A DNA stretch of 64,000 bases from Armatimonadetes bacterium DC (GTDB lineage Bacteria > Armatimonadota > Fimbriimonadia > Fimbriimonadales > GBS-DC), in contig LDYB01000014.1 of NCBI GenBank assembly GCA_001442985.1, positions 186,001-250,000 on the forward strand. Direction: 5' to 3'. Shown here one piece after another: positions 32,645 to 34,648 of this stretch (its first letter is position 1; each line of letters starts with the position of its first letter). Position numbers and translations under genes: made by a program. The notes beneath the pieces are model-generated. The model saw only the letters and a program-made list of their open reading frames with translations, ran no database searches and had not been told where the DNA came from.

Positions 32645-32737
32645 TGGCGGAGAGGGTGGGATTCGAACCCACGACCCCCCTTTTGGGAGGGTTCCCGATT
32701 TCGAGTCGGGCCCGTTCAGCCGCTCCGGCACCTCTCC
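32645..32737 (-). tRNA. tRNA-Ser(CGA)
   Basis: Cloverleaf with acceptor GGAGAGG/CCTCTCC, anticodon loop CTCGAAA (anticodon CGA), the long variable arm typical of serine tRNAs and an encoded CCA. It is the last of five tRNA genes in the cluster. Confidence 0.96.
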
Positions 32738-32741
32738 GTGC

Positions 32742-32818
32742 TGGCGCGCCCGGAGGGATTCGAACCCCCGACCCCCAGATCCGAAGTCTGGTGCTCTGGT
32801 CCGCTGAGCTACGGGCGC
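32742..32818 (-). tRNA. tRNA-Arg(TCG)
   Basis: Acceptor GCGCCCG, D-arm TAGCTCAGCGGACCAGAGC, anticodon stem-loop CCAGA-CTTCGGA-TCTGG (anticodon TCG), T-arm GGTTCGAATCC and encoded CCA. Confidence 0.97.
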
Positions 32819-32828
32819 AAGAGTGAAA

Positions 32829-32906
32829 TGGTCGGGGCGCCCGGACTCGAACCGGGGACCTCTACCACCCCATGGTAGCGCGCTAACCATACTGCGCCAC
32901 GCCCCG
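32829..32906 (-). tRNA. tRNA-Pro(GGG)
   Basis: Acceptor CGGGGCG starts with the C typical of proline tRNAs. The anticodon stem-loop CTACC-ATGGGGT-GGTAG gives anticodon GGG; T-arm GGTTCGAGTCC; CCA encoded. Confidence 0.96.
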
Positions 32907-32917
32907 ACGCTTACAAG

Positions 32918-32993
<76 letters not shown>

Positions 32994-32997
32994 ATGC

Positions 32998-33075
32998 TGG
33001 GGCGACCGATGGGATTCGAACCCACGACCTCCTGAGCCACAGTCAGGCGCTCTAACCGACTGAGCTACGGTCGCC
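32998..33075 (-). tRNA. tRNA-His(GTG)
   Basis: The anticodon stem-loop CCTGA-CTGTGGC-TCAGG gives GTG. An extra encoded 5' G (position -1, base 33075) pairs with C73, the histidine identity element. CCA is encoded. It is the first tRNA of the cluster. Confidence 0.96.
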
Positions 33076-33369: not shown

Positions 33370-33675
33370 TCATATTGCCCCCACAATCACAAGGCGGTAA
33401 ATTGGCTCTGTGCCGATGCGGTATTCCAGCGCTTTGTAGACACGATAAGCCGTACCGCGCCACAGGAAAGTGTCGTCGGGCAGAAGCAACACATCGGGCA
33501 GGTGAGCGAGCATCCAGACGGGGTAGGGCAAGCTCGCGCGCTCGGTTGGAGAGAAAAACCACTCCAGCAGCTCTGGCGGCGGGGGCGAGAACAGCCCATA
33601 AAAGCTCTGCCCGCCCACCTGAAACGGCTCCCCGTAACGCTGAAACCAGTGGCGCACCAGTTGACCAATCTGCAT
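33370..33675 (-). CDS. Small protein, possibly phage head-tail joining-like, 101 aa
   Basis: MQIGQLVRHWFQRYGEPFQV opens a mostly beta-predicted protein with LLPDDTFLWRGTAYRVYKALEYRI near the end. That layout (a short helix, then small barrel strands around a 'D.F...G..Y.V' motif) recalls phage neck or head-closure proteins. I have no firm family match. It is the last of four tightly spaced minus-strand genes; 3 bases separate it from the previous one. Confidence 0.45.
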   Translation of the reverse strand: MQIGQLVRHWFQRYGEPFQVGGQSFYGLFSPPPPELLEWFFSPTERASLPYPVWMLAHLPDVLLLPDDTFLWRGTAYRVYKALEYRIGTEPIYRLVIVGAI

Positions 33676-33678
33676 CGG

Positions 33679-34086
33679 CTATGCCTCCTCTTCTGAGTCG
33701 CGAGGCTGTCGGACGATGAACTGCAATCGCGCGTTGCGGCGCAGGTAGGGCGCGAGTCGGGCATAGCCCTGCGCTTTGAGTCCCGACGGGTCTAACGGGT
33801 TCGGCGGGAAGTAGGCGGGCGTAATCTGGAGCCAGCCGAGCCGAAAGCCGACCCACGCGCCCACCTCGCGCCAGAGGGTGGCGCTCATCTCGCCCGCCAC
33901 CAGCTCCAGCGCGCCCAGATTCAACAATGCCAGCAAATCGGGGTCGGGCGATTGCAGATACACGGGGTCTATCGCATATCGGATTGCGGGCACCATCTCG
34001 TCGATCAGCGCGTCAATATCGCTATCGTAGGCGGTGCCGCTCAGGCGCAGTTTGCGCTTCACATCCTCACGCTGAACCGTAATCAT
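33679..34086 (-). CDS. Small protein resembling a phage head-tail connector, 135 aa
   Basis: The start MITVQREDVKRKLRLSGTAYDSDIDALIDEMVPAIRYAID has the look of the gp6/HK97 head-tail adaptor: a short N-terminal strand, then helices beginning with 'D..I..LI'. The rest contains helical segments and an aromatic stretch (WVGFRLGWLQITPAYFPP). AGGAGG precedes the ATG. Assignment rests on pattern only; the usual terminase, portal and capsid genes are absent. Confidence 0.45.
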   Translation of the reverse strand: MITVQREDVKRKLRLSGTAYDSDIDALIDEMVPAIRYAIDPVYLQSPDPDLLALLNLGALELVAGEMSATLWREVGAWVGFRLGWLQITPAYFPPNPLDPSGLKAQGYARLAPYLRRNARLQFIVRQPRDSEEEA

Positions 34087-34097
34087 GGCGCACCTCC

Positions 34098-34376
34098 TCA
34101 GGGCTTATGCGAGTCCAGCCACTGGTGGAGCGTGTGGCGCAGGCTCAGCAGCACTTCGCGAATCTCGTGCAGGGTCTGCTCCATGCGCTCGTAGGACTCT
34201 TCTGTGCGATGCACGCTCTCACGCAGATAGGCGATGAACTCGTCGGTCACGGTCTGCTCCTGCTCGCGGGCAGATTCCACCAGCTTGTCCATGCGGGTCA
34301 GAATCTGGCGTGTCAATAGCAGCGTCCAGCCGATGAGCATGCTGACCACGGTTGCGAACTGCATCCAGTCCATCAT
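34098..34376 (-). CDS. Small membrane protein with coiled coil, holin-like, 92 aa
   Basis: One N-terminal transmembrane helix (residues about 5-24, FATVVSMLIGWTLLLTRQIL) is followed by a long charged helix with heptad character (MDKLVESAREQEQTVTDEFI and on to HTLHQWLDSH). Small single-helix proteins of this shape occur next to phage lysis or tail genes, but nothing is diagnostic. It overlaps the preceding gene by ATGA. Confidence 0.45.
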   Translation of the reverse strand: MMDWMQFATVVSMLIGWTLLLTRQILTRMDKLVESAREQEQTVTDEFIAYLRESVHRTEESYERMEQTLHEIREVLLSLRHTLHQWLDSHKP

Positions 34377-34576
34377 GGCTCCCACCGCTCCAGTTGATAC
34401 AGCACAATCTGGCGCAGGGCGTTTTCGAGTTGCTCCACCAGTTCGGCGGGCACCTGAAAACGGTGCGCAATTGCTTCCCGCTGGGCGCGCGGCAGACGCA
34501 GAGCGCGCTCGTTCAGCCATTTCTCTACCGAAGGGCGCAGCGCTTGCCAGAGCCATCGAATCAGGGTCTGTCGCAT
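34373..34576 (-). CDS. Small basic helical protein, 67 aa
   Basis: MRQTLIRWLWQALRPSVEKW continues into LPRAQREAIAHRFQVPAELVEQLENALRQI, an all-helical, amphipathic protein. No family is recognised. It is the first gene of the four-gene set and overlaps the next by ATGA. A GGGAGA-like sequence precedes its ATG. Confidence 0.4.
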   Translation of the reverse strand: MRQTLIRWLWQALRPSVEKWLNERALRLPRAQREAIAHRFQVPAELVEQLENALRQIVLYQLERWEP

Positions 34577-34642
34577 TCCTGTTCACTCTCCCAGAGAAGG
34601 GACACGGAGCGCAGGGGCATGCAACTTCGCGCGGGTTTGGGG

Positions 34643-34648
34643 TACAAT
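34643..34648 (+). promoter_or_regulatory. -10 box TACAAT for rpmB-murB
   Basis: GGGGTACAAT lies 31 bases before the rpmB ATG, leaving a normal leader with AGGAGG. Confidence 0.5.

Follow-up and report, generated by a model that had tools for sequence, protein, structure and literature searches.

A four-gene block of Armatimonadetes bacterium DC as the probable neck of a dispersed, GTA-like phage head

The four small genes described here lie in a 64,000-nucleotide stretch of DNA, which was analysed as a whole and is referred to as the window (G000:C14:186001-250000). They were interpreted as the neck of an ancient phage head, vertically inherited, dispersed around the genome and similar to a gene transfer agent (GTA), which is more probably a domesticated particle than a dead virus. 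That a dispersed and maintained phage-head system exists in the order Fimbriimonadales was concluded with high confidence. A GTA function is probable; as far as sequence tells, the system resembles a GTA and would package and transfer DNA. The source genome, G000, comprised 2.85 Mb in 26 contigs and was ~95% complete. The block was arranged as follows:

34577-34646, intergenic, 70 bp between the divergent rpmB (L28) and g67
34373-34576, minus strand, g67: 67 aa, first gene of the block, no transmembrane segment seen
34098-34376, minus strand, g92: 92 aa, hydrophobic N-terminal segment and coiled coil
33679-34086, minus strand, g135: predicted head-tail adaptor of the HK97 gp6 / SPP1 gp15 type
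33370-33675, minus strand, g101: predicted stopper or head-closure protein of the lambda gpFII / SPP1 gp16 type

All four reading frames were intact and tightly packed on the minus strand, in agreement with a first-pass annotation of the window. This had also described ordered ATGA overlaps; one was present, shared by g67 and g92, whereas the other junctions had gaps of 11 bp (g92-g135) and 3 bp (g135-g101). The operon presumably starts within the 70-bp gap, rpmB beginning at 34647 on the plus strand, and a promoter may be located there. Names read from sequence placed rpmB (L28) and a murB-like gene on one flank of the block, and five tRNAs, tatD, lptB and cheA on the other. The G-C content of the block (0.59-0.63) and its GC3 took the values of the adjacent host genes. 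Near the block, the window contained no recognisable integrase, terminase, portal or capsid; the description of the block as having no phage core genes was accurate locally, therefore, but capsid and portal were encoded elsewhere in the same genome. The five tRNA genes (His, Lys, Pro, Arg, Ser) stood in a row at 32645-33074 of the window, just downstream of the block. Origin from a tRNA attachment site was considered and dropped, because homologous blocks in relatives did not adjoin tRNAs and an integrase was absent.

Searches of Pfam and PHROG with the four block proteins alone returned nothing significant, and PDB sequence searches with the g135 and g101 profiles produced chance matches only. 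The predicted structure of g135 (pLDDT 89.3) consisted of helices and a beta hairpin, and its top PDB fold match, identified by Foldseek, was the SPP1 gp6/gp15/gp16 connector (prob 0.77, with a weak E of 0.33); phage necks accounted for 6/10 of its fold matches. The predicted structure of g101 (pLDDT 95.5) had the helix and small beta barrel expected of gpFII/gp16 stoppers, and Foldseek paired it with the lambda neck, the T1 stopper and the Pam3 neck at a probability of ~1.00 (TM 0.53-0.66; E 0.01-0.15). These were the best-ranking matches for both proteins, none of them being significant alone by E-value. On these models, g135 is predicted to resemble an adaptor of the SPP1 gp15 type, and for g101 a lambda gpFII-type stopper is predicted. 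This accords with the earlier reading of the 135-residue product as an HK97 gp6-type connector and of the 101-residue product as a head-closure protein, for which structure prediction had been proposed as a check and gave putative phage-neck folds in both cases. The likeness to SPP1 gp15/gp16 and lambda gpFII extends to the gene order behind the capsid as well as the predicted folds, but not to a sequence-level match with g135 or g101. The adaptor and stopper profiles showed no relatedness to each other.

A holin flavour had also been attributed to the block, which was unsupported for g67 and g92, neither having a significant match in Pfam or PHROG. Described earlier as a coiled-coil membrane protein, g92 alone looked membrane-anchored. 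By profile comparison, it was homologous to the transmembrane/coiled-coil protein that occupies its place in family f5 (prob 93.7%, E = 1.8e-7). Recognised relatives of g67 were confined to the window's family. A kinship between g67 and an LLH-type holin-like protein found in distant clusters was tried and dropped (prob 0.6%).

Protein searches identified a g135 homologue in 32/41 relatives from the order, none with internal stops, and profile searches identified it in 106/291 Armatimonadota genomes, nearly always in single copy; these are, therefore, genes and not chance ORFs. By profile, carriers comprised 18/18 genomes of the window's family plus many genomes in several distant families; g135 was undetected in G018 and G020, where other head genes occur. 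Median pairwise dN/dS in the window's family was 0.27 for g67, 0.15 for g92, 0.15 for g135 and 0.28 for g101, these being rough Nei-Gojobori values for which three genomes were entered twice and dS was often ~1. All four genes are genuine; they evolve under purifying selection and are conserved in the order Fimbriimonadales. With intact frames and dN/dS of 0.15-0.28, the block does appear maintained, as had been supposed; the suggestion that it might be the relic of a prophage did not fare as well, since purifying selection speaks against decay. The block also occurred in genomes without a surrounding prophage. In G006 (L035, L046), the capsid, g135 and portal frames were each split, through either sequencing errors or recent decay in that lineage.

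A conserved trio of genes lay immediately ahead of the block in G003 and G005, members of the window's family, and in further families of the order: head maturation protease (phrog_976), cement (phrog_1731) and a major capsid protein of the Mu gpT type (PF10124, E ~1e-59). In G000, the trio and a Mu-type portal were located as follows:

C19:90617-91546, minus strand, capsid
C19:91559-91972, minus strand, cement
C19:91974-92768, minus strand, protease
C25, ~99762-100880, minus strand, Mu-type portal

Hence, the head genes of G000 formed three separate loci: the neck block, the protease-cement-capsid cluster and the portal. Given these other head loci in the same genome, and the trio beside the block in relatives, the block is one part of a set of phage-head genes that is otherwise found elsewhere in the genome. 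It is not an isolated module whose neck rings serve some different end; a domesticated module of that sort was one of two possibilities raised by the first-pass annotation. Behind the G000 trio were a gene of at most 199 aa and then a 705-aa fibre-like gene, the whole cluster, which included two fibre-like genes, occupying ~87.9-92.8 kb. The fibre-like gene (L040:6934-9051) was present in several copies in the window's family, with one near a prophage in G004, and was excluded as a core component on both grounds; the gene at its position in L126 carried a DUF2961 domain.

Among the 41 order relatives, head genes were usually single copy and found at up to four dispersed loci. In most genomes of the order, homologues of the three G000 loci co-occurred with a terminase whose ATPase and nuclease motifs are intact. 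In the complete genome of G004, the portal (1.23 Mb), capsid trio (1.41 Mb), terminase (2.27 Mb) and neck block (2.56 Mb) were spread over more than 1.3 Mb, so that they could not be packaged as one unit. Across the window's family, the portal stood alone and the terminase nearly always so, with neighbours that differed from genome to genome; in G012, the terminase was ~2.5 kb from the capsid. In G030, the protease, cement, capsid, g135, g101, terminase and portal genes were contiguous. A terminase (PF03237 + PF17289) was identified in all 17 other genomes of the window's family, though searches of the G000 assembly (~95% complete) found none, and the system is therefore possibly incomplete in G000. 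By simple pattern matching, practically every full-length terminase retained the Walker A motif (CGRRWGK[TS]), Walker B and the first of the nuclease motifs, and most retained the later ones.

In distant Armatimonadota, head genes occurred in compact clusters of ~9 kb (L126, L128, L129 and L137), in the order terS, terL, portal, protease, cement, capsid, variable gene(s), g135 and g101. These were followed by small membrane or coiled-coil proteins, and L128 and L129 additionally ended with an M23 endopeptidase or amidase. As the stopper was succeeded by lysis genes, the latter occupied the usual place of tail genes. Host genes lay beyond; those tested encoded alcohol dehydrogenase, ParB, a metallo-beta-lactamase fold, ComEC, an MFS transporter, polysaccharide synthesis, SpoIIE and others. 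No integrase, transposase, replication or tail genes were recognised in the compact clusters, and L128 and L129 contained one inserted gene each that was foreign to the head set. A Mu-like prophage would be contiguous and carry both a MuA-type transposase and tail genes; the compact clusters were without either, and the genes of the window's family (f1) were unlinked. Just downstream of the head cluster in L126 (L126:12980-16747) were ParB, a metallo-beta-lactamase-fold protein and a ComEC-type competence protein.

Pairwise comparison of seven trees (capsid, portal, terL, protease, cement, g135 and rpoB) produced Spearman coefficients of 0.68-0.89 for tree distances and 5-15 shared splits; where head genes were compared with rpoB, the values were 0.68-0.83 and 9-15. 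The observed agreement was reached by 0/499 permutations, and the window's family was a clade in the capsid, portal and terL trees. Genomes without the system lacked it wholesale and not piecemeal. G022, G028, G040 (genus g11), G039 and the less complete G033 were all without capsid, portal and g135, and G032 had only other, prophage-type copies of head genes; the terminases of G039 and G032 did not match those of the head system.

Six features define gene transfer agents (PMC9662315), and three of these were found from sequence. The capsid, portal, terminase, protease and cement genes matched phage families, pointing to proteins from a tailed-phage ancestor; the genes were fully resident in the host genome at several loci (three in G000, four in G004) with host genes around them; and the agreement of trees with rpoB indicated vertical inheritance. 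The other features are cargo that is mostly random host DNA, its delivery to further cells, and a head too small for the element's own genome; on the last, the wide spacing of the G004 loci would prevent their packaging as a unit, and the compact clusters of distant Armatimonadota span only ~9 kb. The RcGTA type of Alphaproteobacteria (Rhodogtaviriformidae) also has host-resident phage head genes at several loci, vertical inheritance and loss in some lineages (PMC9662315; PMC10883770). The present system is alike in all these respects, but differs in its Mu gpT-type capsid and Mu-type portal, in belonging to another phylum and being known from genes alone, in the absence of recognised tail genes, and in a far greater dispersal, which in the window's family leaves single head genes at separate loci. 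The GTAs of Brachyspira and Bartonella (BhGTA, BaGTA) are likewise domesticated phage-derived particle genes in a host genome (PMC9662315). The likeness to these, judged by description and not by sequence, lies in that residence. Their main structural genes are clustered, and the particles are tailed in most descriptions.

The GTA reading derives from several lines of evidence: the position of the block directly behind protease-cement-capsid in relatives, and the trio and portal in the same genome; the contiguous clusters of ancestral type, host-flanked and ending in lysis genes; the agreement of seven gene trees, the joint absence of scattered loci and purifying selection; and, lastly, the retained terminase motifs, the predicted neck folds and the distribution of g135 through the phylum, mostly in single copy. 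In such a system, the shell would assemble on the portal in some cells, and the terminase would pack pieces of the host chromosome. The g135 protein would bind under the portal and g101 would close the channel, retaining the DNA, after which lysis genes, like those seen in the distant compact clusters, would release the particle and its DNA would reach kin.

A tape measure (PF10145, phrog_12798), sheath (PF04984) and gpJ-like tail protein (PF13550) were absent from G000 and almost all carriers. The absence of a tail is suggestive only, because PF10145 was insensitive and overlooked the tape measure carried by the G004 prophage, a control that phrog_12798 recovered. Since no tail was recognised, delivery might proceed through an unrecognised or scattered tail, or through adsorption to the recipient combined with competence. 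Known GTA particles have tails, and the GTA reading is weakened accordingly, as it is by the failure to find a terminase in G000, the weak Foldseek match of g135, the non-detection of g135 in G018 and G020, and the split frames of G006. A bolder version, which is possible but less likely than not, envisages a tail-less GTA ancestral to much of the phylum. Its head, filled with DNA, sealed at the portal and bearing fibre-like proteins, would leave the cell with the help of lysis genes, and recipients would take it up by adsorption and competence. The genes of such a GTA would, just as tentatively, be scattered through the chromosome like those of any ordinary host function.

It is unlikely that the heads were domesticated for a different use, for example as a protein-loaded or DNA-storing compartment that is never delivered. 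The lack of a recognisable tail would suit such a compartment, as would the compact clusters, where the stopper leads directly into lysis genes; yet portal, motif-intact terminase, adaptor and stopper have all been kept, parts that package and hold DNA and for which an empty compartment would have no need, and the endolysin genes of the same clusters suggest release.

Old prophage remnants undergoing slow loss would explain why the genes are scattered and lost in some lineages, why a terminase was not found in G000 and why frames are split in G006. This was nevertheless considered very unlikely, given open frames with dN/dS of 0.15-0.28, retention by 18/18 family members and more widely in the phylum, and absence that is joint and not piecemeal. 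More improbable still is that these are structural genes of a mobile element that is still moving, either a prophage or a phage satellite. Some phages and satellites encode Mu-type heads, and related heads were present on a few IMG/VR contigs (13). However, the compact clusters had no recognised integrase or replication genes and were bounded by host genes, the trees resembled rpoB, and the loci of the window's family were unlinked; furthermore, the nearest named phage capsids were only ~30-36% identical, and g135 had no match at E<=1 among 50,697 phage records.

Proven GTAs are known from few lineages. If the preferred, GTA-like reading is true, an element inherited through the Armatimonadota would represent an independent domestication, from a Mu-type head. 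It would be among the most dispersed GTAs known, bearing on whether a GTA needs a tail, and would offer a concrete route of gene exchange for an almost uncultured phylum. Solitary head genes are easily overlooked or annotated as prophage fragments, and the present block drew attention solely as a group of orphan neck genes. No report of a GTA in Armatimonadota was found in the searched open-access library, co-occurrences of the terms being incidental.

Ordinary prophages do occur in these bacteria, one of 45.5 kb being reported from Fimbriimonas ginsengisoli (PMC4072686). A separate Mu-like prophage in G004 (L049; G004:C1:668800-688700), with a MuA-type transposase (PF09299), a tape measure and its own cement, capsid and portal, contrasts with the dispersed head system of the same genome. 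Mu-like phages and prophages (Mu and JBD30 type; FP_Mushu; L049) resemble that system in capsid (PF10124; PDB 8rkc and related chains), portal (PF06074) and terminase, but combine transposase and tape measure in one contiguous element, whereas neither turned up in the present, dispersed set of genes. Among the IMG/VR contigs, L168 (IMGVR_UViG_3300032397_002336), which is filed as viral, carried portal, protease, cement, capsid, g135 and g101; it may represent a host contig with this head system. L167 had an adaptor of the ordinary head-tail family phrog_195 and probably derives from a phage.
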